Source of the DNA: an uncultured Lachnospiraceae bacterium
Lineage (GTDB): Bacteria > Bacillota > Clostridia > Lachnospirales > Lachnospiraceae
DNA: 64,000 nt
NCBI GenBank assembly: GCA_945949045.1
Contig: CAMFDG010000003.1
Location: 1 to 64,000 of the forward strand
Direction of reading: 5' to 3'
Position numbers and translations under genes: made by a program. Shown piece by piece: positions 7,182 through 47,863 of the stretch (the first letter of the stretch is position 1; every line of letters starts with the position of its first letter). The notes beneath the pieces are model-generated. The model was not told the origin of the DNA. It worked only from the letters and a program-made list of their open reading frames with translations, and did no database searches.

Positions 7182-7226
7182 TTTGGGCGTGGTAAGTAAG
7201 GTATTTGCCTATACGCCCATTTACAA
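7182..7226. repeat. GGGCG/CGCCC intergenic repeat (single copy)
   Basis: TTTGGGCGTGG...CCTATACGCCCAT; related to 9564-9797 and 23960-24065. Confidence 0.5.
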
Positions 7227-7413
7227 ATTGTCTAAACGGCTGGTGTGCAGACATTGCATGTACTTGCAGTTATTGCACCGGTATATTTTTGAAACCAGGG
7301 AGAAATAAGGAGGAGTTCGGTAATGATAGATGAAAAAACAGTAGTAGTAACAAAGGATATACCTCCACATGCTGAATGGGTAGCACCAGCTACCCACAGC
7401 AGACAATGATTCC

Positions 7414-8046
7414 TCAAATCCTCTGTTTACAGATATCCTGCAGGCAGCAGTGCTCACAGTGTGGGGTGGTGCGAGCAGTGCACACCTCCCGTCCATGCAT
7501 GACGAAGCGGTGGCACAGGTCGTTGCCCTCCTCAGGAGGGATGATCTTCCACAGTGCCATCTCCACCTTCTTCGGTTCCTTGATGCCATCCACAAGGCCG
7601 ATGCGGTTGCAGAGGCGGATGCAGTGGGTGTCGGTGACGATGGCCGGCTTGTGAAATACATCTCCCATGATCAGGTTGGCACTCTTGCGGCCGACGCCGG
7701 GCAGGGCTAAAAGTTTGTCAAAATCATCCGGTACCTGGCCATCGTAGGTATCCCGCAGGATCCGCATGCAGGCGCTGATGTCTCTGGCTTTGCTTTTCCC
7801 GAGGCCGCAGGGATGAACAATGGCTTCAATCTCTTCTACGGGCGCCTCAGCCAATGCGCTGACATCCGGAAATTTTTCATATAATTTTTCTACCACCACA
7901 TTGACCCTTGCGTCGGTGCACTGGGCAGCGAGGCGGACGCTGACCAACAGCTTCCAGGCCTCGTTGTAATCCAAGGTGCATTCCGCAATGGGATATGCAG
8001 TTTTCAAGCGGTTTATCACTTCTAAGGCTAATTCTTTCTTACGCAT
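7414..8046 (-). CDS. nth: Endonuclease III
   Basis: SVRLAAQCTDARVN, LPGVGRKSANLIMGD and C-terminal 4Fe-4S Cys cluster CTARTTPHCEHCCLQDIC. Confidence 0.93.
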   Translation of the reverse strand: MRKKELALEVINRLKTAYPIAECTLDYNEAWKLLVSVRLAAQCTDARVNVVVEKLYEKFPDVSALAEAPVEEIEAIVHPCGLGKSKARDISACMRILRDTYDGQVPDDFDKLLALPGVGRKSANLIMGDVFHKPAIVTDTHCIRLCNRIGLVDGIKEPKKVEMALWKIIPPEEGNDLCHRFVMHGREVCTARTTPHCEHCCLQDICKQRI

Positions 8047-25485: not shown

Positions 25486-25559
25486 CGGCGCGTGGCTCAG
25501 CTTGGTAGAGCGCTGCGTTCGGGACGCAGAGGTCGCAGGTTCAAATCCTGTCGCGCCGA
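25486..25559 (+). tRNA. tRNA-Pro(CGG)
   Basis: Acceptor CGGCGCG/CGCGCCG, anticodon stem CTGCG/CGCAG with loop TTCGGGA (anticodon CGG), T-arm GCAGGTTCAAATCCTGT. Confidence 0.96.
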
Positions 25560-25560
25560 C
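25517..25560 (+). repeat. Left att direct repeat (within tRNA-Pro)
   Basis: GTTCGGGACGCAGAGGTCGCAGGTTCAAATCCTGTCGCGCCGAC. Confidence 0.95.
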
Positions 25561-25724
25561 GATTTCAAGGATTCCGGTACATAAGTGAGAGAATCCTTGG
25601 CAGGGGCAGCCCCCGGAGGTTTTCCGTTGGAAAGCTTCTGGGGTTTCTTTTTTGCCATACAGAAGGATTCGGACACGAATTTTAGGTCCGTTCTACAAAA
25701 CGTTCTACAAAAACGCTAAAAGTG

Positions 25725-26972
25725 CTATGAGAACAGATTGCCGCAGGATGCAGACAGTGTTTCCAGATCATCCGGGACTTCATTGAGACGTTTTCTGTCA
25801 AAGTGACTGTAAATGTTCAAAGTAGTGCTTGTATCGGAATGGCCGAGCCAGTATTGCAGCTTTTTTACATCCCATCCCTTGTTGATCAGCAGGGATGCAC
25901 AGGTATGACGTAACTTGTGTAGAGTGATCTCTGGACGCCCAAATGCTTTTGTGGCTTTGCAAAAGAGCTTTGAGATGTAATCTGGGTCGTATGGCTTTCC
26001 ATTTTCCCATGTAAATACATAGTTTTCTTTGTTCTGATAACAGTTACCGAAAAATTCGCGGTTTTCTTCCTGCAGAGCCTTTACCTGATTTAAACACCGT
26101 TCAGCGGTGGGAAATAGTGCAAGTGTACGGAAACTGTTGACAGTTTTGGTTGAATCCTTTGCCTCTGTAGTTTTTACACGAACTACGGTGTGCTGGATCC
26201 GAATTGTTTTTTTCTGATAGTCAATGGCATCCCATTTCAACCCAAGAATTTCCGAACGTCGCAAACCATAATAAATGCCGAAAAAACATATTGGGACCAG
26301 CCTGTTGAAGAGAGGATTTGAATTGTCTGCGAGAAAATCCATCAACTCGGTACATTCTTCTTCGGACAGAAACAGCATTTCCTCTTCGTAGTCCTTATTT
26401 TTCTTTCCGTGGACACTGACCATTGAAACTGGATTTGATTGAACCAACCCATCAATGGCAGCCTGGTTATAGACGGCAAGAAGAATACTTTTGATTGACC
26501 GTACAGTACGAACTGCAAGGGGTTCTTTTTTGTGGGTCTTCTGGTTTGTTTTTCCAGAGTGGAGCAGATAGCAGACAAATTTATCAACCATAGTTGCGGT
26601 CAGGTCTCTAAGCAAAGGATTGGTAACGATAAAATAGTTTCGAATCTGTGCTGCCCGGTATTCATAGGATTCATAGGTTGATTTTTCCAATTCATCCCTT
26701 TTCCTGCTGAGCCAGATGTCCAGATAATCGCAGAGCGTGATATCTGGATCATAGTCTGTATTATATTCCTCAGGAAGCTCTTCAAGGTAAGAATACTTTG
26801 CGATGAAATCATTTTTCATGCTTTCTGCTTTTCGTTTATTTCCCTTGACGGTTAATCCGGTGGCTACCATCTTCTGGCACCATTTCTGGGACAGTGGATT
26901 TTTATAGCTTAATTTGATATAATAGTAGCTGTTCCCAGAAGCTGCGTTTTTAACAATTAATGAACCTGTCAT
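25725..26972 (-). CDS. int: Tyrosine recombinase/integrase
   Basis: GLRRSEILGLKWDAID, HKLRHTCASLLINKGWDVKKLQYWLGHSDTSTTLNIYSH (R..HxxR..H/W..Y); next to att. Confidence 0.96.
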   Translation of the reverse strand: MTGSLIVKNAASGNSYYYIKLSYKNPLSQKWCQKMVATGLTVKGNKRKAESMKNDFIAKYSYLEELPEEYNTDYDPDITLCDYLDIWLSRKRDELEKSTYESYEYRAAQIRNYFIVTNPLLRDLTATMVDKFVCYLLHSGKTNQKTHKKEPLAVRTVRSIKSILLAVYNQAAIDGLVQSNPVSMVSVHGKKNKDYEEEMLFLSEEECTELMDFLADNSNPLFNRLVPICFFGIYYGLRRSEILGLKWDAIDYQKKTIRIQHTVVRVKTTEAKDSTKTVNSFRTLALFPTAERCLNQVKALQEENREFFGNCYQNKENYVFTWENGKPYDPDYISKLFCKATKAFGRPEITLHKLRHTCASLLINKGWDVKKLQYWLGHSDTSTTLNIYSHFDRKRLNEVPDDLETLSASCGNLFS

Positions 26973-27041: not shown

Positions 27042-27215
27042 TCATGCCGAGACCATAAAATGGCTGACATCGGTTTTGCGGACTCGGTAAATGCGACCGA
27101 TTTTCTTTGCAGGGAGTTGACCTGTCTGGATTAGAGAGTAAACGGTACGTTTGGAAAGGTGCAGCATCTGACATACTTGGTCGATGTTGACGACATCTGG
27201 ATATTCGCTAAACAT
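27042..27215 (-). CDS. Excisionase-like MerR/HTH_17 small DNA-binding protein (57 aa; not in supplied ORF track)
   Basis: Read by hand: MFSEYPDVVNIDQVCQMLHLSKRTVYSLIQTGQLPAKKIGRIYRVRKTDVSHFMVSA*. Confidence 0.88.
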   Translation of the reverse strand: MFSEYPDVVNIDQVCQMLHLSKRTVYSLIQTGQLPAKKIGRIYRVRKTDVSHFMVSA

Positions 27216-27230
27216 ATATACTCCTCCTGC

Positions 27231-28244
27231 CTATGTCAGAATCAGTGGACGACTAATTGTAGCCTCTCCAACCTGCAGAATGCCATCGGCAACACACTCA
27301 CCCCGGCGAAGTTGTGCGAGAGGTTGGTGCCAGTCACCGCCATGTATATGATGGAGAGACTTCGCGATACGTTGCAAATCCATTTGAGCAGGCTGGAAGT
27401 AAAGCTTGGTCCCAGCCTGTTCTAACATTGACACGGTATTCCGTGGAAAAATGGATAAGGATTGTGTGGCGAGGATAAGGTTAATCCTAAATTTGCGTCC
27501 CTCGCGTAGTAACTGTCGAACCAGAGAAGATGAGCCAAGATATAGACGTTGCACTTCGTCCAAAACAACCATAAAATCCGGAAGATTATTCTCTACGCGA
27601 TCTTTCCAGAGACACGAAAGAACAACCTCAACCAGTATTCGCTGCGTACTATCATCTAAATCGCTAAAGTCAAGGATGTTAATACGTTGAGGTTGAATTT
27701 GGGGTTTTCCAGTACGGATGACATTACATTCGAAGAGGCCCCAGAGGCGCTCAAAAAGATCCTCTCCTGGTGTACCAAGAGCCTTTAAATTGGAACCGAT
27801 GGATTGCAAATCGTTGGTCTCTGGTGTGTGATTATGGAAGGCAGTGGAAACTGCAGCTCGAAGTAGTTTCGTTTGATTAACTCCCAAATTTGCCGGTCTG
27901 GAAATCGCCTGTGTGATGTTGTTGATTGTCATAAAATCAGGAGTGCTACGTTTCTTTCCTGAGAAAAACGGATGAAGATTAATTCCATCCCGGAGGGCGG
28001 AGATTCGATTAGTCACGGGTTCATATTCTGAGCGAATGGGTAGAAATATTTGTTCAGAATCATGGCTGTGGGCTGTATCGATTACGATGATTGTCTGACC
28101 GGCATGTTCAGCATCAAGTTCTATTTGTTGCATACGGCAGGTTTTGCCTGAACCACTTATTCCTGTTATTAGAACAGACTGGTTGGCTGCAGAGTGTGCA
28201 ATTGTGCATTTGTTTTGATGTAAATTACCGAGATTCAATGTCAT
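27231..28244 (-). CDS. HerA/FtsK-like P-loop ATPase
   Basis: SVLITGISGSGKTCRMQQIELDAEHAGQTIIVIDTAHSHD (Walker A), PDFMVVLDEVQRL (Walker B), INLILATQSLSIFP. Confidence 0.8.
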   Translation of the reverse strand: MTLNLGNLHQNKCTIAHSAANQSVLITGISGSGKTCRMQQIELDAEHAGQTIIVIDTAHSHDSEQIFLPIRSEYEPVTNRISALRDGINLHPFFSGKKRSTPDFMTINNITQAISRPANLGVNQTKLLRAAVSTAFHNHTPETNDLQSIGSNLKALGTPGEDLFERLWGLFECNVIRTGKPQIQPQRINILDFSDLDDSTQRILVEVVLSCLWKDRVENNLPDFMVVLDEVQRLYLGSSSLVRQLLREGRKFRINLILATQSLSIFPRNTVSMLEQAGTKLYFQPAQMDLQRIAKSLHHIHGGDWHQPLAQLRRGECVADGILQVGEATISRPLILT

Positions 28245-29328
28245 GGAATTCGCTCCTTTCTTCTAAAGTAAGGTATTCGTTTGAAAGTAAGGCTTCCTTG
28301 TTAAGGCGTATAAACCGCGATATAAGTGTTTGACCGAAGGCGTTATATGTCGTTTTTTTACAGGTGTAATTGGATTGATGGTTGGCATCGACAGAAATTA
28401 TCCCCTCTTGGGCAAGATTCTTGAGAATTTTATGCCATCCGATGTTTTTAAGTAGGGGCTGGAAGATGTCCTTTAGTAGGGAACTAGATATAAAGTAGTG
28501 TTTTTCATTCCATAAAATTGTCATGCCTGTATTTAGTCGAGTATTGGCCTCGCCTTCGATTTGGTCGCAAGGACAGTATGAGATATTCGTGTGCGAGTCC
28601 AGATATTTGTAAAATATATGGACGAAAGTATTGGCAAGGTCAACTGTTGTATCACAATTTAGATGATTCTGAAACAATTCTTGCATATTGCGTTGAAGAG
28701 AGTTCCTCCGAATGGCTGTCTCTTCTTCGTTGTGCTGGGAACGGAACCAGAACAGATAGATTTCTGCAATAACCGCAAGCTGATTAATAAGTAGTGAAGA
28801 TGATTCTGTGTTTTGGAGCTGAAGATAGTTCTTTGAGGTAAATGCTTGCGTCAGTGCCAATGTTAGGTTATCTGGCGATTCTCGAAAAAAATGCTTGCAG
28901 TCTGCTAATTCGGGTAAGCAAGGTGAATTATTAGCTAGAGAATTGAGCGGGAGTGAAATAGTATCAGCAAGGTCCACAAGTTCATCAGGAACAAAGTTGT
29001 TGCACACGACCAGCGGTTGGAAAGAATCTTGCCTCAAAAAAATACCGATATTTTCTGAGGTATCGTACTTCTGCAAAATATACAGACCGAGATGAAAGTT
29101 GGGGACAGAAAAGGACTGTCGCCGTACCGAAGTGATTTCGGTTATGTCCTCAAGGCACCGTAAATTTCCTATCCAGCGATCCCCTTCAGAGGGGGAATCG
29201 TTGCATAAAATCAGACCCTTTGCGGTTGGACAGCCACTAGCCATCAGGGGAGTGTGAAATTCGGCAAGAAGAGAGAGTATCGATATTGAGTCAGAAATTA
29301 GCGAATAGCCAAGGATATTTTTTTCCAT
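28225..29328 (-). CDS. Unknown protein, middle gene of the HerA-like operon
   Basis: Intact 367-aa ORF overlapping both neighbours by about 20-30 bp. Confidence 0.7.
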   Translation of the reverse strand: MEKNILGYSLISDSISILSLLAEFHTPLMASGCPTAKGLILCNDSPSEGDRWIGNLRCLEDITEITSVRRQSFSVPNFHLGLYILQKYDTSENIGIFLRQDSFQPLVVCNNFVPDELVDLADTISLPLNSLANNSPCLPELADCKHFFRESPDNLTLALTQAFTSKNYLQLQNTESSSLLINQLAVIAEIYLFWFRSQHNEEETAIRRNSLQRNMQELFQNHLNCDTTVDLANTFVHIFYKYLDSHTNISYCPCDQIEGEANTRLNTGMTILWNEKHYFISSSLLKDIFQPLLKNIGWHKILKNLAQEGIISVDANHQSNYTCKKTTYNAFGQTLISRFIRLNKEALLSNEYLTLEERSEFHDIESR

Positions 29329-29930
29329 TTTGGTACCTCCAAATTAATAAAAATGAATGTTCCCTGAGGGGTCAAATACCAGCCAGGGGTATCATAAATA
29401 AATGCTGTTTGGTGACAATTAGATATTAGTGTGGAAATTAATTTTCTGGCAAGTTCTTTTTGACCTGCGAAGGAATCAGTATAAAAAGAAATGCCTACGG
29501 ATGAAAGCTTACGAATCAAATAGGATCCCTGTCCGACTTTTGCTGAATCTAGAAAAACAGAAAAAGATTGTTCATTAACTTGTCCAGTAAGTTGAAAAAT
29601 CTGTTCGTCCTCATTCATCCAATGTATCAGATTGACAAGGTTAAAGTGTTTTGCATTGCAGATCAAATGTTGTGTATCATCGGTAGCAGATGACCTACAA
29701 ATTTCGACAGCCGAACCATTTGCGCTAATGACCACTTCGTGGTATAGAGAGCGCTTATACTCTGCTTCTTGAGCCTTGATCCATTGTTTTTGAGCAAATT
29801 TCTTAACATCAAGCTCGGCTTTGACGTTTTGCTTGAAAGCATACGCTTCGCAATCAGCGCTGATGGAAATAAGTTTTTCAGCTGTTTGATCGGATATTTC
29901 CGATGGTGGATAAGAGTTTGGATATATCAT
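29298..29930 (-). CDS. Unknown protein, first gene of the HerA-like operon; C-term vaguely DUF927-like
   Basis: Intact ORF (start chosen at MIYPNSY); TAFIYDTPGWYLTPQGTFIF. Confidence 0.6.
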   Translation of the reverse strand: MIYPNSYPPSEISDQTAEKLISISADCEAYAFKQNVKAELDVKKFAQKQWIKAQEAEYKRSLYHEVVISANGSAVEICRSSATDDTQHLICNAKHFNLVNLIHWMNEDEQIFQLTGQVNEQSFSVFLDSAKVGQGSYLIRKLSSVGISFYTDSFAGQKELARKLISTLISNCHQTAFIYDTPGWYLTPQGTFIFINLEVPKWKKISLAIR

Positions 29931-30079
29931 ATTAGTCTCCTCTCGAAATTGATTCAAAAAGGTATGAAGTTTTCAATGTGCAGTGGATATCCCGTGGTTA
30001 TTTTACTGACATGAATTCGTGTCTGACTCGAGTTTACCAAATCTCAAAAAGCACAGTTGGGACAGGAGGAACACGAAAA

Positions 30080-32866
30080 ATGAAAAAAGAAATTTCTGTG
30101 TTTGAATTGTTTAAAACGTACATAACAGAGAGCCTTATGAAATGTGGGGTTATAGAGGAAAGCAAAAGAAATATTAAAATTAACATGATTATTCAGGATA
30201 TTTTGAGCATTGAAGAGGAAGATAAAGATGAGAAGGAAGATGAAGACGAAAAATATAGCAGGCTAATGGAAAAAATTCATAAATGTCGGACAAGAGGGAG
30301 TGTTATTCAAATCAAATGGAATGAGTTGATACAGAATAAAGTGGGGCTAAAAGATGATACAGACAGGGAAAGGAGAATTGAAGAATCAAACGAGAATTTT
30401 TTTGCATTACTTGAAGCAGCAATAAATTCATCTGATGAATTAACATATCGAATCGATGCGAATCAAGGTAATGACATAGAAAGGGAACTGTCAAATCGGA
30501 TCGAATCATTTGTTGGCGATATAGTATTTAATAGAAATACCGATATATTGTCTAAAGTATATGTATTCTTTATACATGGATTTTATGGAAGGGTTAAGGA
30601 AAGAATACCACATGAGGCTAATGTTCCATATTTGGATAGAGGTAAAGAGCCTTCTATTGGCAAGGATTGGAGTTTTACGTGGATTGTTGGACCTGCATAT
30701 GCCGGTAAAACCAGATTTTTGTTGCATTATGCAGAAAATAATAATAAATCTGTCGTTTATTGTGAGAATCCCGAATCATACGATGAAATAATGAATCAAA
30801 TTTTCTTTGAGGAAGATCAAATTCTAAATGATGATGCACGTGCAATATTAGGGTGTAAAAGTAAGCAGGATTTAAAGAAGGAGGAACGTATTAAATATGT
30901 CTTGGAGGATTTCGTTCTCATTGTTGATGGGGACAGACTGAAGGACGATGATATTGGGAAACTACGTTTATTAAGTAAGTTAGATAAAATTCAGGTGTTT
31001 GTTGAAACACGATCCGGTAATCATATAGATGATCCGGATCAGCATGTTGTTCAAGTTTATCCTTTCACAGCGGATGATGCTATTAATTTGTTTTTGGGGG
31101 TTAGTAAAAAATACGGACAAGGAGAGGCGCGGGAAAAGAATACTGCGCTGAACAGGATATTGCCAGATGTTTGTAAAGTGGTATGTAATAACCCAGGGAT
31201 AATTATTTTGTTGGCAGAGCATTATTGGTATTCAATAAAGAAGAATAATTATCAGAGCAAGAAAGAAGCATTTGAATTCCTAAAAAATGTTATTGATTTC
31301 CAACCAGTAGGTAAAATGGATAAAACAATATGTGGGGAAAAATACTATTCATCATTAGATTACGGGCAAGATGATGGCAATAAACAGGTGCAGGCAAATA
31401 TTCTTGGACATATTCGCAACCTCTTCAAAGCTAATGTTCCTGAAGTGGAGCAGAGCACATTTTATGTTTTAGCTCTTCTGAATGGCATCGAACTAAGGAT
31501 GAATTATTTGATGAATTGGTTTGGCATATCTAAAATGGTAATACAAGAGTTGGAGCGAGACGGTTGGTGTACAGTTGATCAGGAGAATATGACTATTGGG
31601 ATTCCACATCTGATAGTACATGCTTTTGGTGAAGATGAGTTTAAAAAAGTAACGGAATTAAGGACATTTAAAATATATATATCAAATTTGTCTAAGACAC
31701 TTAACAGAAGGGAAATACAACCAACGGATGTAGGAATTATGCAACAAGTGATACAGAGGATCCATGATGTGTTTTTCGTACAGCTGAGAAAGAAAATTTC
31801 GATGTTAGATGAAAGCATATATGAGTTTCATTTTTCTTGTATCAGATATTATTTATATTATGGGAATGCTGTGCAGGCAGAACAGCTAGGTACTTTGAAA
31901 AGTCTGGAAATTGATGAAAAGTATAAAAGCCATGTATATGAGCACATACTGTTGACAATCAAAGATTATATTGGAAAGGATGATTTGGCAAGAATTTACG
32001 ATGATATTATTGATCTATTAAATACGAAAGCAGTATTCAGCTCGTATTTTGGAACATTGGCATTCTTGGATATGATATATCTGTGGTCTGAAAATACGAC
32101 TTTGCGCTGTATAGGATTTGTGATGGAATTTAAGCATACAAACCCTAAACATATAAAGTTTAAATATACAACACTAAAGCGGGTACAGTTTAAACGCATA
32201 AATCCTAAACGGGTAGATTTTAAATACGCAAAATTTGAATATGCAGAATATAGAAATATTAAATTGACAATTAACAGGTTGCGGGAAATTTATGGTGTAA
32301 TAATTTCTATGGAAGAAAAAAACAGAGATTACGGGATTTGTGTTCAATTGAAATTCTATTCAGATGTGTTTGATGATTTCACTTATTCTGAATATTACTC
32401 ACCTGAAGTGCTTTGTCAACGAATACAGTCTTGGAATTCTATTGAAGAGGCTTTTGATAGCTCAGAGAATAAAACCGTAAACGATGTCGAAAAGAAAATT
32501 TATACAAAATCAGTTATTCTTGTTCTGTATGAATTATTCTATCTGATTACGATTAACCTAATTAATCAGAGAAATAATAAAGACGATATTTTATCGGGAA
32601 AGATACATGGAAATCTTAAATCGCATATAAGAGATACCTCGGAACGATTGATTGAATTGAGGGATTGTATTGGAGAATTGCCATGTTACTGTGCAGGTGT
32701 GTGTATATTATCATGCGGATTGGCGGGAGTAATTTTACACGATAAGTCTCTTATGAAGATACGAGAATATGATTATAAACATGTCGCAATGTACAATCAG
32801 AATCATCTGGATTGGCTTCAGAAAGTCATTGCATGTTATCGTAAGTGGGGCGATACGGAGGAATAG
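30080..32866 (+). CDS. Large STAND-like P-loop NTPase with internal pentapeptide-repeat tract
   Basis: RBS AGGAGGA before ATG 30080; FTWIVGPAYAGKTRFLLHYAE Walker A, EDFVLIVDGDRL Walker B-like, VYPFTADDAINLF; tract FKHTN-PKHIK-FKYTT-LKRVQ-FKRIN-PKRVD-FKYAK-FEYAE. Confidence 0.75.
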   Translation: MKKEISVFELFKTYITESLMKCGVIEESKRNIKINMIIQDILSIEEEDKDEKEDEDEKYSRLMEKIHKCRTRGSVIQIKWNELIQNKVGLKDDTDRERRIEESNENFFALLEAAINSSDELTYRIDANQGNDIERELSNRIESFVGDIVFNRNTDILSKVYVFFIHGFYGRVKERIPHEANVPYLDRGKEPSIGKDWSFTWIVGPAYAGKTRFLLHYAENNNKSVVYCENPESYDEIMNQIFFEEDQILNDDARAILGCKSKQDLKKEERIKYVLEDFVLIVDGDRLKDDDIGKLRLLSKLDKIQVFVETRSGNHIDDPDQHVVQVYPFTADDAINLFLGVSKKYGQGEAREKNTALNRILPDVCKVVCNNPGIIILLAEHYWYSIKKNNYQSKKEAFEFLKNVIDFQPVGKMDKTICGEKYYSSLDYGQDDGNKQVQANILGHIRNLFKANVPEVEQSTFYVLALLNGIELRMNYLMNWFGISKMVIQELERDGWCTVDQENMTIGIPHLIVHAFGEDEFKKVTELRTFKIYISNLSKTLNRREIQPTDVGIMQQVIQRIHDVFFVQLRKKISMLDESIYEFHFSCIRYYLYYGNAVQAEQLGTLKSLEIDEKYKSHVYEHILLTIKDYIGKDDLARIYDDIIDLLNTKAVFSSYFGTLAFLDMIYLWSENTTLRCIGFVMEFKHTNPKHIKFKYTTLKRVQFKRINPKRVDFKYAKFEYAEYRNIKLTINRLREIYGVIISMEEKNRDYGICVQLKFYSDVFDDFTYSEYYSPEVLCQRIQSWNSIEEAFDSSENKTVNDVEKKIYTKSVILVLYELFYLITINLINQRNNKDDILSGKIHGNLKSHIRDTSERLIELRDCIGELPCYCAGVCILSCGLAGVILHDKSLMKIREYDYKHVAMYNQNHLDWLQKVIACYRKWGDTEE

Positions 32867-33623: not shown

Positions 33624-33899
33624 ATGGCGAGAGATAAATTCATCACAGTGAAATGCTCAGAAGCAGAATATCAAAGAATTAGTCAGGGAGCATCTAAGTC
33701 CAATAAACCAGTCAGCAGTTATTTGAGAGCACTTGGAACAGAAGGACGATATACCAAGAAGGCTAAGAGGGAGATTGGGATTACGGCAATTGTGAAAATG
33801 ACACAGTTGTGTAATGATACACGGAAGAAGGTGGTTGATGATGATCCGATTGTGGATCTGTTACAGGAAGGAGTAGATAAATTATGGCAAAGCTTATAA
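33624..33899 (+). CDS. MobC-like relaxosome protein
   Basis: ITVKCSEAEYQRISQGASKSNKPVSSYLRALG RHH-like mobilization protein, 16-bp overlap with the relaxase gene. Confidence 0.8.
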   Translation: MARDKFITVKCSEAEYQRISQGASKSNKPVSSYLRALGTEGRYTKKAKREIGITAIVKMTQLCNDTRKKVVDDDPIVDLLQEGVDKLWQSL

Positions 33900-34477
33900 A
33901 TATTAATGGTCAGAAAAAGGGAAAGAAAACGCCCTATGCTGATTCTGATTCAGTAGGGAATCTTTGCAAATATGTTTTGGGGGAAGACGAAAAGCATAGT
34001 AAAAATGAAATACTTGAAATTGGTGCTTACGGGGTGGATGATCATGGTACAACGCAGAAAATGGTGGAACAGATGAAGATTGTTCAAAATGCTTATAGGA
34101 TTGAGAGCAGGGGAGGACGGAGAATGGCGCATATGTGTCTAAGTGTTACGGAAGAGGAGTTTGGGAGTCTTGGTTGCAATGATAAGCTTCTCGGGGAATA
34201 TTTCTCAGATTGTGTAAGAGATATATATGATATGGGACATCAGGTAGTTTATGGATTGCATCTTAATCAAAAGGATGAGGGAGATGATGCCCATGCGTTT
34301 GCACATGTGCATATGGCAGTCAATAGCATTAATTTTACTAATGGCAGAAAGTTTCATTTGACAAAGAAGGAGTTTGTGAATGAAGAGAACGTGATGCGTC
34401 AGAAAATTGAGGGGTATCAGGTGCAGTCGCCGGTAATATTTCAAAATGCAGATGTCTATAGGCGGGTAAATGCATAG
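33884..34477 (+). CDS. Short relaxase (MobA/MobP-like N-terminal domain)
   Basis: HAFAHVHMAVNSINFTNGRKFHLTKKE HUH-type relaxase motif; only 197 aa. Confidence 0.75.
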   Translation: MAKLININGQKKGKKTPYADSDSVGNLCKYVLGEDEKHSKNEILEIGAYGVDDHGTTQKMVEQMKIVQNAYRIESRGGRRMAHMCLSVTEEEFGSLGCNDKLLGEYFSDCVRDIYDMGHQVVYGLHLNQKDEGDDAHAFAHVHMAVNSINFTNGRKFHLTKKEFVNEENVMRQKIEGYQVQSPVIFQNADVYRRVNA

Positions 34478-34578: not shown

Positions 34579-35792
34579 GTGTTAATAATGTTAATTATAG
34601 AAGCGACTAAGAAAGAATATGATTTCATGTATAAAAAAAATTGCGGTATAAAGAAACATTATTTTTTTGAATCAGTTCAACAGCTGATTGGACAGAATGC
34701 CACACTATTAAAGCAGAATGAAAATCTTACAGTTTCAGTGGCGAAACTGACTGACAAAGTCGATAAACGGAACCAAACCATCAAAAAACTCTGGGATCAG
34801 TTAAACAAAAACTTTAGGAACAGTTTTAACCGTCATCATCTGACGGGCTTGAGAAGCCGACAGTAAAAATGACTGTGACTTTCAATACGGTGGCTGTTGT
34901 CAGCATCAACCTCACATATGAAATCCTTTCCAGTGTGTTTAATATCCCGCTTGTAACCGGTACGTTCGAAAACATTGTAAAGTGTTGTGCGGATTCCATG
35001 AAGGAAACATACGAAAAAATCCAGTTGAAAATGACCGCTTTAGAGCTGATATACTATGATGAAACAGGCTCCCGTGTGGATGGAAAAATCTGGTGGGTAC
35101 ACTATGCCTTTGACAAGGCTTATACTTATCTGACGATCAATAAAAAGCACTGTATTGGAATGGATGAAGCGGTGGTACTGCCGCATGCACGTGGAATCAT
35201 AGTCCATGACTGCTGGGGTTCTTATTGGCAGTATCCGGATGTGACACATGCCGCCTGCTGTGCCCATCTTCTCCGGGAACTAAACGGAGTAATTGAGAAT
35301 CATCCGGAGCAGACCTGGGCTCCAAAGTTCAGGAAACTTCTTCTCGACATGAAAAAGAGCCGGGATGAAGCCGTTCAGGAACACAGGGATGAATTCAGCA
35401 TCCATCAGCTCAGTAAATTTGATACAGAGTATGATTACATCATCAAAACAGCATATGAGGAAAATCCACTTCCTGAAACTTCTGCTAAAAAGCGCGGTCG
35501 CAAGAAAAAGAGCAAAGTATTAAATCTTATCTGCAGACTGGATAATTACAAGGCATCAGTCTGCCTGTTTATAAAGAATTTCTGTGTACCATTTGATAAT
35601 AACCAGGCGGAGCGTGACCTGAGGATGGTAAAAGTAAAAACCAAGGTCTCGGGCTGTTTCCGAAGTGAAGAAGGTGCACAGGAATATCTTACAATCATGA
35701 GTTACATTGGATGTGCCAACAAGCATCACATACATGCTTTTACAGACATCCGCGAAGCATTAAACGGAAACCCTGATATTATTTTTGCGTAA
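34579..35792 (+). pseudogene. IS66-family transposase remnant (frameshift plus internal deletion)
   Basis: N-part VAKLTDKVDKRNQTIKKLWDQLNKN...; out-of-frame SSSDGLEKPTVKMT; C-part YYDETGSRVDGKIWWVHYA, VHDCWGSYWQYP, NNQAERDLRMVKVKTKVSGCFRSEEGAQEYLTIMSYI. Confidence 0.9.
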
Positions 35793-40657: not shown

Positions 40658-40745
40658 AATAATTTTCTTCTTCTATAAATTGAGAAGATTGTTGTGGTAA
40701 AATTATGTTGATCAATAATATAGTATCATTATGTAGTAATAACTC

Positions 40746-40778
40746 GGGCTTACTGCCAGTGGCAGTAAGCCCTTTTTT
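40746..40778 (+). terminator. Terminator/leader hairpin directly before parM
   Basis: GGGCTTACTGCC-AGT-GGCAGTAAGCCC-TTTTTT, ends 25 nt before ATG 40798. Confidence 0.85.
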
Positions 40779-40797
40779 CACCAGAAGGGAGGACAAC

Positions 40798-41724
40798 ATG
40801 ATTGATCTGGGAAATGGCAGGTACATCATAGGTTTTGACAACGGCTATCAGTTTGGCAAGACAGCAAACCATATGTTTGACAATGGGGTGTATCCGCTGG
40901 GGAAGGTGGAGCCGTCTGTAAAGGAGCATTCACTGAAATATGAACGGAAGTATTACAAAGTAGCAGAAGGCAGAGCTGCAATCACCGAGGATAAGGTGTC
41001 GGATGAAAATGCGAGGCTTTTGACAATGGTGGCTATGGCAAAGGAGCTTTCCGCTATCGATATACACAGGGCAGAGGTGATTCTTGCAGTGGGGCTTCCG
41101 TTCTCCGACTATGGAAGGGAGAAAAAGGAGCTGATCCGTTATTATGAGCAGAAACCAGTAATAAGATATGAATTGGAAGGAATCCGGTATGACGTGGAAG
41201 TCAGCCGGATTTTTGTTTTCCCGCAATGCTATGCTGCAGTTTCACCAAGGCTTGGGAATATGAAGGGAGATTACCTTGTAGTTGATATCGGGAGCAAGAC
41301 TACGGATGTGGTTTATCTGCGGAACGGACTTCCGGTGGAGAGCCGGTCCATTACCATTGAAAAGGCAATGGTCAGGTGGATCCGGCAGATACAGGGAAGC
41401 CTGCAGGTGCAGTTTGGAAAAGCAGTTCCGGAAAAGGAAATCCTAAAAGTAATCTTAAGGAAGGAAAGCTATCTTCCGAAGCAGTTCGTCTCTCACATTC
41501 GTAAAAAGATGAGGGAGCTGGTCAGTGAAATGGTTCTGGAACTTGCGGAGCATGGATACGACATGGACTATTCGAAGGTGATCTATGTTGGTGGCGGGGC
41601 TGTGGCGGTCAGGAATTTCGGGGAACAAAAGGACAACGTGGCTTATGACTGTGACATACTGGCAAATGCGAAAGGCTATGAATTTCTGGCAGGACAGATG
41701 TTAAGAAAGCAGGGGGCGGCGTGA
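40798..41724 (+). CDS. parM: ParM/StbA-like actin-family segregation ATPase
   Basis: YIIGFDNGYQFGKTANHMF, YLVVDIGSKTTDVVYLRNG and VIYVGGGAVAVRNF. Confidence 0.85.
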   Translation: MIDLGNGRYIIGFDNGYQFGKTANHMFDNGVYPLGKVEPSVKEHSLKYERKYYKVAEGRAAITEDKVSDENARLLTMVAMAKELSAIDIHRAEVILAVGLPFSDYGREKKELIRYYEQKPVIRYELEGIRYDVEVSRIFVFPQCYAAVSPRLGNMKGDYLVVDIGSKTTDVVYLRNGLPVESRSITIEKAMVRWIRQIQGSLQVQFGKAVPEKEILKVILRKESYLPKQFVSHIRKKMRELVSEMVLELAEHGYDMDYSKVIYVGGGAVAVRNFGEQKDNVAYDCDILANAKGYEFLAGQMLRKQGAA

Positions 41725-43539: not shown

Positions 43540-43624
43540 TTATATTATAATAAGAAGATACAGAAAAACGGGCAGGTGCATACCAGTATTGCGCCTGCCT
43601 TTCATTTTGCGGAGGTGGAAAGGA

Positions 43625-44554
43625 ATGAAAGTAGTAGTAAAGACAGCAAATCTGACAAGACAGGAGTGGCTTAAGTACCGGACACAGGGCATTGGAGGAT
43701 CCGATGTCTCCATCATTGCAGGAATCAATCCCTTTAAGTCGGTACACCAGCTCTGGCTGGAAAAGACCGGACAGGTTGAACCGGAAGAGGAGAACAGCGA
43801 GTATACGCATTTTGGGACCATTCTGGAGCCGGTTGTGCGAAAGGAATTCATGGAGCGCACAGGAATCAGGGTAAGACAGAAACATATGCTCCTGCAGAGC
43901 GAAGAGCATCCGTTTATGTTTGCGGATCTGGATGGAGTCATCAACGAGAACGGGGAACTGTGTATCTTTGAGGCAAAGACGGCATCAGCCTACAAGCAGG
44001 ATGTGTGGGAGGATGGCGTTCCGGCACCATATATCCTGCAGGTGCAGCATTACATGGCAGTGACCGGGGCAAAAAAGACCTACATTGCAGCCCTTGTCGG
44101 AGGCAACCATTTCTTTTCCCATGTGGTGGAGAGGGATGAGGAAATGATCGGGAAGATTACTGCAATGGAAAAATACTTCTGGGAAAACCATGTGCTGGGC
44201 GGTGTGGAGCCTGTGCCGGATGGTTCGGAGGCAACCACCAGATATTTTAATGAGAAATTTTCCAGTTCCAATGGCGAAACGGTGGAACTCCCGGAGGAGG
44301 TGCTTCCGGTCTGTGAGAAATATGATGACCTCACCCGGCAGATCAGGGAACTGGAAACGGCAAAGAATGCTGCAGCAAACCAGCTGAAAAGCTATCTTGG
44401 GAATGCAGAAGCCGGGACAGTGGGAGACCGGAGGATTACATGGAAGTCTGTCAGCAAGAATTCCGTGGACACCAAACGTCTGAAACTGGAACATCCGGAT
44501 ATTTACACGGACTGCCTGACACAGAGCAGTTACCGGAGATTTATGGTTGCGTAG
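43625..44554 (+). CDS. YqaJ-family viral recombinase/exonuclease
   Basis: RTQGIGGSDVSIIAGINPFKSVHQLWLEKTG and GELCIFEAKTASAYKQDVWEDGVPAPYILQVQHYMAVTG. Confidence 0.92.
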   Translation: MKVVVKTANLTRQEWLKYRTQGIGGSDVSIIAGINPFKSVHQLWLEKTGQVEPEEENSEYTHFGTILEPVVRKEFMERTGIRVRQKHMLLQSEEHPFMFADLDGVINENGELCIFEAKTASAYKQDVWEDGVPAPYILQVQHYMAVTGAKKTYIAALVGGNHFFSHVVERDEEMIGKITAMEKYFWENHVLGGVEPVPDGSEATTRYFNEKFSSSNGETVELPEEVLPVCEKYDDLTRQIRELETAKNAAANQLKSYLGNAEAGTVGDRRITWKSVSKNSVDTKRLKLEHPDIYTDCLTQSSYRRFMVA

Positions 44555-44566
44555 GAGAGGAGTGGT

Positions 44567-44998
44567 ATGATGAACAGGATTTTTCTGATGGGAAGGCTTA
44601 CAAAGGATCCAGAGGTCCGGTACAGCCATGGAGATAACCCGATTGCGATTGCCAGGTATTCGCTGGCGGTGGAAAAGAAACAGAAGCGGGAGGACGGGAT
44701 CAAAGCGGACTTCTTTAATGTGGTGGCATTTGAGCGCCTCGGGGATTTTGCGGCAAAGTATCTCCGTAAGGGCATTAAGATTGTACTGTCTGGAAGAGTT
44801 CAGACAGGGACTTATGACAATAAGGATGGTGTCAGGATGCCGTTCTTTGAGGTGGTTGCTGAACTGCAGGAATTTGCAGAGAGCAGAACTGCCGGGCAGT
44901 CTGCAGGGAAAGAAGATGCACGGGGCGGAAGCAGGTATCCAGAAGAAGGAGGATTTCTGCAGATTCCGGACAATCTGGATGATCTGCCTTTTGATTAA
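44567..44998 (+). CDS. ssb: Single-stranded DNA-binding protein
   Basis: MMNRIFLMGRLTKDPEVRYSHGDNPIARYSLAV-type OB fold, C-terminal acidic tail DDLPFD. Confidence 0.94.
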   Translation: MMNRIFLMGRLTKDPEVRYSHGDNPIAIARYSLAVEKKQKREDGIKADFFNVVAFERLGDFAAKYLRKGIKIVLSGRVQTGTYDNKDGVRMPFFEVVAELQEFAESRTAGQSAGKEDARGGSRYPEEGGFLQIPDNLDDLPFD

Positions 44999-45023
44999 GC
45001 AGAGGAAAGGAAGTGTGGTGAAC

Positions 45024-45791
45024 ATGGCAGAGAATACAATCCGGCTGCTTCGAGCAGACGAAATTGAGTGCCGTATAGGAATGATCAATGAAAAGGGGTT
45101 GTCCCTGCTTTTATATAAGGATGCGAGAGTGGATATGAAAATCCTCGATGAAGTCTATGGTCCGACTAACTGGCAGAGAAAGCATGAAGTGATCGGTGGC
45201 TGTCTTTACTGTACGGTCAGTATCTGGGACGAGAAAAAACAGCAGTGGATCTCCAAGATGGATGTGGGTACGGCTGGCAGCACTGAGAAAGAAAAAGGTG
45301 AGGCTTCGGATTCTTTCAAGCGTGCCTGCTTTTCCCATGGAATCGGAAGGGAGCTTTACACGGCTCCGTTTATCTGGATCGGGGCAGCCAGGGCAAACAT
45401 TCAGAAAAAAAATGACCGCTTTGTCACCTTTGATAAGTTTAAGGTCAGCAGTATTGTATACAATGACAGCAGGGAGATCACGGGCCTTACGATTATGAAT
45501 CAGGATGGGCAGGTAGTTTATACTCTGAATGGTCAGTTGTCCGGCTGTCAGGTGAAGTCTGGAAACGGCACTGCGGAATCTGGGAAGAAGGACCCGACGA
45601 GTGCTGGCTGCCAGCATCATGGACAGCAGACGGGACATGAGGAGGCTATCAACCGGGAACTGGAACGGACCGGGGTGGCTCTGGATACTGTATTGAAGCG
45701 ATACGGGGTGGGCAGTGTGCAGGAGATGGACGACAGTGTCTACCGCAAAGCCATGAACTGCCTGAAAAGGACAAAGTCAAAGGCTGCATAG
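45024..45791 (+). CDS. Rad52/DUF1071-like annealing protein
   Basis: EVYGPTNWQRKHEVIGGCLYCTVSIWDEKKQQWISKMDVGTAGSTEKEKGEASDSFKRACFSHGIGRELY. Confidence 0.75.
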   Translation: MAENTIRLLRADEIECRIGMINEKGLSLLLYKDARVDMKILDEVYGPTNWQRKHEVIGGCLYCTVSIWDEKKQQWISKMDVGTAGSTEKEKGEASDSFKRACFSHGIGRELYTAPFIWIGAARANIQKKNDRFVTFDKFKVSSIVYNDSREITGLTIMNQDGQVVYTLNGQLSGCQVKSGNGTAESGKKDPTSAGCQHHGQQTGHEEAINRELERTGVALDTVLKRYGVGSVQEMDDSVYRKAMNCLKRTKSKAA

Positions 45792-45901: not shown

Positions 45902-46792
45902 ATGATGGAGTTTAAGGAATTTACAGAAGAAGTGAAAAAGGGACTGGAAAAGCTGGCAGGCAAAAACACAGAGATCCGAATTGAAGAACGTCTGAAAAAT
46001 AATGGGTTGAAGCTGACGGGAGTTTCTGCGCTGCAGAAGGGAGAGAATGTTTCACCGGTGGTGTATCTGGAACCGTATTACCAGAGTTACAGGGATGGAG
46101 ACAGCACCTTAAATAAGATTGTGGAGAGGGTTGCAGGACTTTTGGAAGAACATTCCCAGACAGGGGACATTAAAGCGCATGTTGAGGAGTTCGGGGACTG
46201 GGAAGGGATCCGGTCGCGCATCTTTGCAAAGCTTATCAATGCGGATATGAACCGGGAACTTCTGCAGAGGGTTCCATACAGGGTGTTTATGGATCTTGCC
46301 GTGGTCTATTACGTGAAGGTTAAGGAGTTTGCAGGAGGCGGTGCCGGTACGATACTGATAGATCACAGCCATCTGCAGCAATGGGGAGCAGATGAAAACA
46401 TGCTGTATGAGGCTGCCCTTTCCAATATGGAGGAAGAGGGGACAAGTGTTCAGAGTATGGATGAAATCTTTAGGGAAGCTGGAAGGGATCTCCTTCCGGA
46501 TCCCTGTGGCATGCTTGTCCTTACCAACAGAAGCAAGGTCTTTGGTGCATCGGAATTATTAAGGAAAGATATTCTTCGAAAGCTTGCAGGAAAGCTGCAG
46601 GACAATCTCGTTATCCTGCCAAGCAGCATCCATGAGGTTATCATCCTTCCGGAAAGGGAGGCACCGTCCGAAGGGGAGGCAGCAGCTATGGTGAAGGAGG
46701 TCAATGATAGTGAACTGCTTCCAGAGGAGGTTCTTTCGAACCATGTGTACCGGTTTGATTGGGGAAAAGATGAGGTGTATATTGCTGCATGA
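45902..46792 (+). CDS. DUF5688-family protein
   Basis: 296-aa ORF; NNGLKLTGVSALQKGENVSPVVYLEPYYQSYRDGDSTLNKIV and GMLVLTNRSKVFGASELL. Confidence 0.75.
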   Translation: MMEFKEFTEEVKKGLEKLAGKNTEIRIEERLKNNGLKLTGVSALQKGENVSPVVYLEPYYQSYRDGDSTLNKIVERVAGLLEEHSQTGDIKAHVEEFGDWEGIRSRIFAKLINADMNRELLQRVPYRVFMDLAVVYYVKVKEFAGGGAGTILIDHSHLQQWGADENMLYEAALSNMEEEGTSVQSMDEIFREAGRDLLPDPCGMLVLTNRSKVFGASELLRKDILRKLAGKLQDNLVILPSSIHEVIILPEREAPSEGEAAAMVKEVNDSELLPEEVLSNHVYRFDWGKDEVYIAA

Positions 46793-46868
46793 TGGTTGTA
46801 AAAACAAATTATTGTTGTTATAATATCCTTATACGTCGAGATGAATTTATAAAATGGGGAGTTTGAAT

Positions 46869-47657
46869 ATGGATAATCAGCTCACACTGGAGCAGAAGAA
46901 GCGCAAAGTGCAGGACTTTCGCCCGATTGATGATGTGTTCTTCGAGGTACTGGCAAATGACGTACCATTCTGTGAGGAATTATTAAGAACGATTCTGGAA
47001 GATCCGAAACTTGTCGTAAATGATGTGATTGTACAGAGCAGTGAGAGAAATATGTATGGTCGATCTGTTCGGCTGGATGCATTATGTACTCTGGGCAATG
47101 GGGAAAAGTGTAATATAGAAGTGCAGAGATCAGATAACGATGATCATTTGAAGCGCGTAAGATTCAATGCTTCAAGTATTACGGTTAAGGAATCACAAGT
47201 TGGAGACAGATTCGAGGATGTAGCAGAGGTATATGTAGTATATATTTCTGAATTTGATATCTTTGACAGGGAAAGAACCATATATCATGTAGAAAATGTG
47301 ATTCGTGAGACGGGAGAACAGGTTGACGATGGATTACACAGGATTTTTGTGAATACAATTTATAATGATGGATCAGATATTGCGGATCTAATGTCCTGTT
47401 TTACGCAGAAACAGGTGAACAATCCAAAGTTTCCGGTATTGACACGAAGAATGAATGAGTTAAAAAATGAAGAAGGAGGTCTCAATATCGTGTGTGAAGT
47501 AATGCAGAAGTATGAAAAGATTGCCGCAGAGGATGCTGCAAAGAAGGAAAGAATTGAGGCAATCCAGAATATGATAGAGCTGGGGCTTTCAGAAGAGAAG
47601 ATTTTAACCAAGTATACCAGGGAAGATTATGAAGAAGCACAAAAGGGAAATGGATGA
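46869..47657 (+). CDS. Rpn-like PD-(D/E)XK nuclease-family protein
   Basis: RPIDDVFFEVLANDVPFCEELLRTIL, VRLDALCTLGNGEKCNIEVQRSDNDDHLKRVRFNAS. Confidence 0.85.
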   Translation: MDNQLTLEQKKRKVQDFRPIDDVFFEVLANDVPFCEELLRTILEDPKLVVNDVIVQSSERNMYGRSVRLDALCTLGNGEKCNIEVQRSDNDDHLKRVRFNASSITVKESQVGDRFEDVAEVYVVYISEFDIFDRERTIYHVENVIRETGEQVDDGLHRIFVNTIYNDGSDIADLMSCFTQKQVNNPKFPVLTRRMNELKNEEGGLNIVCEVMQKYEKIAAEDAAKKERIEAIQNMIELGLSEEKILTKYTREDYEEAQKGNG

Positions 47658-47819: not shown

Positions 47820-47863
47820 GTTCGGGACGCAGAGGTCGCAGGTTCAAATCCTGTCGCGCCGAC
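47820..47863 (+). repeat. Right att direct repeat (3' fragment of tRNA-Pro)
   Basis: Identical 44 bp to 25517-25560; lacks the tRNA 5' half. Confidence 0.95.

Follow-up and report, generated by a model that had tools for sequence, protein, structure and literature searches.

A Walker A-free initiator in two pieces and a HerA/FtsK-class ATPase as the probable replication/excision core of a Lachnospiraceae integrative element

What do three overlapping genes, one coding for an ATPase and two for proteins without a match in the sequence libraries, contribute to the DNA that carries them? The question is raised by a locus in the first 64,000 nucleotides of contig CAMFDG010000003.1 (assembly GCA_945949045.1, an uncultured Lachnospiraceae bacterium), the stretch analysed here and referred to as the window. 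A first-pass annotation had described the locus as a HerA-like ATPase with two uncharacterised partners and had offered two readings, a defence system pairing HerA with an effector or a function in the element itself. We conclude that the three genes are probably the replication/excision core of an integrative, and probably mobilizable, element and not cargo defence. The trio and its downstream neighbours are the following.

29298 to 29930, minus strand: p1, 210 aa from ATG, the putative N-terminal part of a split DUF927/Cch/SaPIBov1-Rep-like initiator; an N-terminal coiled coil is followed by an alpha/beta domain with a GW motif at its end.
28225 to 29328, minus strand: p2, 367 aa, the putative degenerate AAA+ core and C-terminal helix-turn-helix of the same initiator, without Walker A.
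27231 to 28244, minus strand: HerA/FtsK-class ATPase, 337 aa, with GISGSGKT, VVLDEVQ, ATQ and EGRK.
27042 to 27215, minus strand: xis, an excisionase-like HTH_17 protein of 57 aa (Pfam HTH_17, E 1.4e-13).
25725 to 26972, minus strand: int, a tyrosine recombinase (integrase; XerC/XerA models E 6e-22 to 8e-24, PHROG integrase E 5e-63).

A check of the open reading frames and translations in the window confirmed the annotated coordinates: the three frames are intact and overlap on the minus strand in the order p1, p2, ATPase. The overlaps are 31 bp between p1 and p2 and 20 bp between p2 and the ATPase, and Shine-Dalgarno sequences (GGAGG, AAGGAG) are found at the starts of both p2 and the ATPase; an alternative p1 start, TTG at 29957, would give 219 aa. 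The xis start lies 15 bp past the ATPase stop codon, all five genes share the minus strand, and the catalytic residues of int (R...HxLR...H...Y) are intact as read from the translation. From this gene spacing, co-transcription of the trio with xis and int appears likely. The sole strong promoter-like match in the five-gene run (27045-27017) is just before int and overlaps the end of xis; the count of promoter matches in the region was not above chance. Separate initiation of p1 and p2 was preferred to programmed frameshifting, since p2 has its own Shine-Dalgarno sequence and start codon at several loci. An assembly frameshift is an unlikely cause of the split, as the break falls at nearly the same place in eight independent loci.

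The GISGSGKT, VVLDEVQ and ILATQS motifs pointed out in the first-pass annotation are all present in the ATPase, and its assignment to the HerA type holds at the level of the HerA/FtsK class, given matches to DndH (PADLOC, E 4.8e-15), mad8 (PADLOC, E 3.1e-14) and DptH (7es4, E 7.9e-15, the best PDB profile match). By sequence, it lies nearest within this class to the motor at the C-terminal end of DndH/DptH. The predicted active site comprises the P-loop GISGSGKT, Walker B VVLDEVQ, the sensor-1 glutamine in ATQ and an upstream arginine in EGRK. These catalytic residues are conserved in 11 homologues: the P-loop, the Walker B DE.Q and the arginine are kept across the members and the sensor glutamine in most of them. 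A HAS-barrel is not present at the N-terminus, where the P-loop begins at residue 28 of 337. Matches of the ATPase to RecA, KaiC and myosin were regarded as P-loop background.

By sequence search alone, the partners remained as uncharacterised as first described: nothing over threshold was obtained for p1 or p2 in Pfam, NCBIfam, PADLOC, PHROGs or, with hmmsearch, PDB. The Pfam DUF927 model had no match in the genome of the window, and no member of the initiator family passed the Pfam cut-offs for DUF927 or HTH_56. Structure models were more informative. The AlphaFold model of p1, computed from an alignment of five loci, had a pLDDT of 83.8, and Foldseek against 350,542 PDB chains returned two chains of SaPIBov1 Rep (8tch_A/B) with probability 1.00 and E-values of 9.2e-4 and 2.8e-3. 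These were the only high-probability matches; the third PDB match had E 0.16 and probability 0.18. Among viral models, the best matches of p1 include phage replication protein B, a ring-shaped helicase and a DUF927 protein. The p2 model was poor (pLDDT 58), and its top PDB match was SCCmec Cch (5dgk, E 3.6e-6, TM about 0.3), followed by AAA+ proteins. TM-scores were low (0.3-0.4), as expected with distant or partial models, and the matches support topology, not detail. Partners that strongly match replication proteins in structure are what the first-pass annotation had named as counting against its defence proposal, and this is largely what was found.

Profile-profile comparison by hhalign gave a consistent picture. 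The p1 profile aligned with the N-terminal domain of DUF927/Cch proteins (E 3.5e-4 to 1e-3, with the GW motifs falling in register; reversed controls about 0.7), and the C-terminus of p2 with the Cch/DUF927 C-terminal helix-turn-helix (E 7.6e-5; reversed control 0.75). These E-values are those of single comparisons picked after a weak HTH_56 hint (Pfam E 0.11), and reversed-sequence controls gave E >0.3 in all p1/p2 comparisons; the Foldseek searches were unsteered by that hint. We are thus fairly confident in assigning p1 and p2 to the DUF927/Cch/SaPIBov1-Rep family, and an origin is the probable target of the C-terminal helix-turn-helix of p2. A comparison of p1/p2 with the N-terminal part of DptH showed them to be unrelated to it. 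In the genome of the window, on contig 49, a further open reading frame (L106, 148-744) lies near the contig edge and adjoins a secA-like frame; its C-terminus has a helix-turn-helix of the Cch type (HTH_56 E 7e-5, below the cut-off), and it is perhaps a remnant of another element.

Walker A ([GA]xxxxGK[ST]) is absent from all 12 initiator homologues, whereas the same pattern is present in most of the DUF927/Cch proteins scanned. Judged from sequence, the trio initiator is not an active member of the Cch/SaPIBov1 Rep family.

Conservation of the trio was assessed in 397 Lachnospiraceae genomes. The trio is not a chance set of reading frames, because it recurs in the same order, split or fused, in other Lachnospiraceae genomes and in named MAG contigs. 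Of the 397 genomes, ten have an initiator match at E<1e-6 and every one of them also carries the ATPase, so that the joint conservation sought in a neighbourhood search was indeed found. The p2 profile recovers the same set as the ATPase profile (G000, G155, G199, G260, G261, G273, G302, G360, G397, G434); G269 gave a marginal p2-profile match with four stop codons. Within the family, the ATPase profile detects further genomes with stand-alone relatives of ~340-360 aa that are accompanied by p1/p2-type partners; in the rest of the phylum sample its only matches are large proteins of DndH-like or other HerA-like type. It additionally found a decayed locus in G464 and a relative in a different context in G190. 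The former (L074, 6801-10766) is a module in which a stop interrupts the ATPase, the initiator is not intact and the integrase is broken. In the latter (L004, 2-2190, at a contig edge) the ATPase relative has a DUF4007 gene and another P-loop gene as neighbours; this is probably a different, defence-like system with the same motor. No p2 relatives were found in plasmid records. Viral contigs gave no relatives with two ATPase queries and, with a third, one weak ATPase relative without partner genes; there is accordingly no sign of a phage module.

The two partners are not independent proteins. In four loci (L008, L069, L070, L075) a single fused gene of 611-724 aa replaces p1 and p2, while the split is found in the window and seven others. 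These single fused genes in other elements show that p1 and p2 derive from one ancestral protein, p1 from its N-terminal and p2 from its C-terminal part; the earlier description of two partners therefore stands for the genes and has to be revised for their ancestry. The ATPases of the eight split loci form one clade (local support 0.79, or 0.93 without L072), and distances among the initiators track those among the ATPases (Mantel r 0.84, p 0.0001, n=12).

Downstream of the trio, a recombinase is encoded on the same strand in all 12 loci whose contigs reach that far. It is a serine recombinase at L007, L068, L069, L070, L071, L077 and L078 and a tyrosine recombinase at the window, L008, L073, L074 and L075, with one extra gene between trio and recombinase at L075. 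At L077 the C-terminal remnant of a second, L070-type ATPase (7224-7556, plus strand) separates the intact trio from the serine recombinase, which suggests that one trio replaced another. Five loci also carry window-like YqaJ, Rad52-like or DUF5688 genes, or a ParM-like gene.

In the window, the trio, xis and int all lie inside a 22.3-kb integrative element bounded by a 44-bp direct repeat. Its borders and principal genes are as follows.

25517 to 25560, plus strand: left attachment repeat, 44 bp, at the 3' end of tRNA-Pro(CGG) (25486-25560).
47820 to 47863, plus strand: right attachment repeat, 44 bp, 100% identical to the left copy (genome-wide search).
33624 to 33899, plus strand: MobC/NikA-like accessory mobilization protein (Pfam NikA-like, E 2.9e-9).
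33884 to 34477, plus strand: short relaxase with a MobA/VirD2 nuclease domain, 197 aa (Pfam Relaxase, E 1e-9).
34869 to 35792, plus strand: IS66 family transposase, apparently an insertion-sequence remnant, adjoining the relaxase gene.
40705 to 41724, plus strand: ParM/Alp-like plasmid segregation actin (ALP_N 3.1e-9, MreB-like_C 3.5e-10, PHROG partition protein 7.9e-35).
43589 to 44554, plus strand: YqaJ exonuclease (Pfam YqaJ, E 4.4e-38).
44567 to 44998, plus strand: single-strand DNA-binding protein, SSB (Pfam SSB, E 1.6e-22).
45021 to 45791, plus strand: Rad52/Erf-like ssDNA annealing protein (PHROG Erf-like, E 3.9e-16; Pfam Rad52_Rad22, E 0.002, below the cut-off).

DUF932 and DUF5688 proteins are also encoded. 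In the related genome G005 the left flank extends to window position 25650 and the right flank resumes from 48031; as these flanks are only ~130 bp apart there, the 22.3 kb between them represent an insertion. The terminator region after tRNA-Pro (25561-25656, ~95 bp), which lies inside the att repeats, is ~88% identical in element-free relatives. Since it is common to these relatives, the element may carry a copy of the terminator region, or the geometry of the exchange may be unusual. At the same tRNA-Pro in another species (L094, G038 contig 95), short stretches resemble the right end of the element (window 46784-47657), like a remnant of an internal deletion.

Divergent from the trio, at 30080-32866 on the plus strand, lies a gene for a 928-aa P-loop NTPase (GPAYAGKT; AAA_22 E 0.002; weak pentapeptide-repeat match). 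No homologue was found at the other trio loci; it is possibly a STAND-like cargo gene with an anti-phage role.

Pfam recognised no replication initiator in the element besides p1/p2, which themselves were placed by structure and profile comparison, and no primase gene was seen. No iterons were found after the ATPase and none clearly before p1, nor was there a clear set common to the loci; an excess of short, mostly A-rich repeats upstream occurs in a few loci only.

These observations can be assembled into a model. The products of p1 and p2 would be the two halves of an initiator, with a DUF927-type N-terminal domain, an AAA+ core lacking the P-loop and a C-terminal helix-turn-helix, and would form a complex with the HerA/FtsK-class ATPase. 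As Walker A is missing in the initiators and the active site is conserved in the ATPase, the simplest reading would be that the motor function has moved from the former to the latter, so that the separate ATPase would provide the ATP-driven motor now missing from the initiator. Through co-transcription of the trio with xis and int, the 22-kb circle would be excised and replicated in a coupled manner, after which ParM would segregate it; single strands would be handled by the SSB together with Rad52 and YqaJ, while relaxase and MobC may permit mobilization. We hold a role of the trio in replication to be moderately probable, counting in its favour the presence of ParM and SSB in the element and the position of the trio before the recombinase, which parallels that of cch before ccr in SCC (PMC7581432). 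The further proposal that the two-piece initiator, without an AAA+ motor of its own, and the HerA/FtsK-class translocase form a hybrid replicative helicase that unwinds the element origin is put forward tentatively; no biochemical description of such a hybrid in bacteria was found, and an initiator with a dead ATPase might just as well act as a platform for DNA binding, in transfer or in defence.

Transfer is the first of these other roles to be weighed. The ATPase might be a soluble coupling protein that passes the relaxosome to a conjugative system of the host, with p1/p2 as DNA-binding adaptor. The element does encode a relaxase and MobC, the relaxase has a homologue in the G155 element, and PMC10853773 likens the wHTH of its helicase to the conjugation protein TcpK. 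The Pfam TrwB_AAD_bind model also scores just above its cut-off on the ATPase (26.1 vs 20.5 bits), but its best stretch covers the P-loop region only, and the closest families are DndH and HerA. Moreover, the ATPase lacks a transmembrane segment (highest 19-residue hydropathy 0.95), unlike a T4SS coupling protein (VirD4/TcpA), the trio sits with int and not with the mob genes, and a DUF927/Rep fold would be unexpected in a coupling adaptor. We therefore consider this role unlikely.

Slightly less probable still is counter-invader defence, in which the ATPase and the inactive helicase, domesticated from a transposon, would sense intermediates that arise when invaders transfer or replicate, an idea put forward for this class in PMC10853773. 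Besides that proposal, it draws on the proximity of the ATPase to the DndH and MADS mad8 motors and to DptH (7es4), on the related ATPase adjoining a DUF4007 gene at L004, and on the large P-loop NTPase cargo gene divergently beside the trio. That neighbour, however, is without a counterpart at other trio loci, and no nuclease or other effector belongs to the trio or is conserved next to it. The scans of p1 and p2 against Pfam, NCBIfam and PADLOC showed no nuclease, SIR2 or DUF4297 family, and in place of defence partners the folds are those of replication proteins, so that the proposed HerA-effector system finds no support here. Adjacent recombinases, of two types, are kept in 12 of 12 informative loci, and the window element, whose att repeats are exact, whose integrase is intact and which encodes a relaxase, looks mobile, not domesticated. 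A role as recombination accessory, remodelling the att complex or setting the directionality of integration and excision, would account for the constant same-strand position upstream of exchanged recombinase types, but SCC elements arrange their replication helicases likewise and unrelated recombinases beside the same trio make a direct partner less likely, so that we regard it as very improbable.

The replication/excision reading, which corresponds to the element function mentioned as an alternative in the first-pass annotation, is thus the better one, the partners matching SaPIBov1 Rep, SCCmec Cch and DUF927/Cch helicases. It replaces defence partners of unknown nature by a specific, testable role, and the complete, bordered element provides a setting in which to study a published but unexplained association of an inactive helicase with a HerA/FtsK ATPase. 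Should the ATPase truly drive a dead initiator, this would be a replicative helicase built on a new plan and would bear on the acquisition of the DndH motor from mobile elements.

Compared with known systems, the trio shares features with several. Canonical HerA, found with NurA or in HerA-SIR2 and HerA-DUF4297, has the same HerA/FtsK ATPase core, but the trio ATPase is without the N-terminal HAS-barrel and the trio without a NurA, SIR2 or DUF4297 partner. The C-terminal ATPase of DndH/DptH and MADS mad8 belong to the same ATPase branch; unlike DndH, the trio ATPase stands alone at 337 aa without the DndH N-terminal domains, and no dnd, dpt or other mads genes were seen beside the trio. SCCmec Cch and SaPIBov1 Rep are DUF927-type self-loading initiator helicases; Cch, which is related to SaPIBov1 Rep, precedes the ccr recombinase genes in SCC (PMC7581432). 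The trio initiator resembles them in the fold of both halves, in colinear domains and in its place before the recombinase, but differs in being split, in lacking Walker A, in having a separate HerA/FtsK ATPase and in falling below the Pfam cut-offs.

The closest parallel is provided by the mobile operons of Firmicutes described in PMC10853773 (NAR 2024), with an inactive helicase, HerA/FtsK, Xis and a recombinase, for which domestication for defence is suggested. In that account, the helicase is called a D5-type SF3 protein with a C-terminal wHTH, and the HerA/FtsK proteins form clade 1, related to the DndH motor. The window has the like set, a DndH-related ATPase, an inactive helicase with C-terminal wHTH, a Xis-type HTH protein and a tyrosine recombinase, the families being equated from the published description only; since the locus fits that description, the kind of system can be taken as already known. 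In contrast to the D5-type assignment, the p1/p2 matches favour the DUF927/Cch branch, and relative to the operons as described there the helicase is divided between two genes at eight loci, the window included, and many relatives have a serine recombinase. Unlike the domestication view of the same account, the element borders, relaxase and ParM of the window point to a mobile element, and the intact elements seen here argue against domestication. What is added here is the split helicase, its affinity to DUF927/Cch and SaPIBov1 Rep, the versions with a serine recombinase, the strict pairing of initiator and ATPase in the genomes sampled, and a bordered element with mobility and segregation genes in which they reside.
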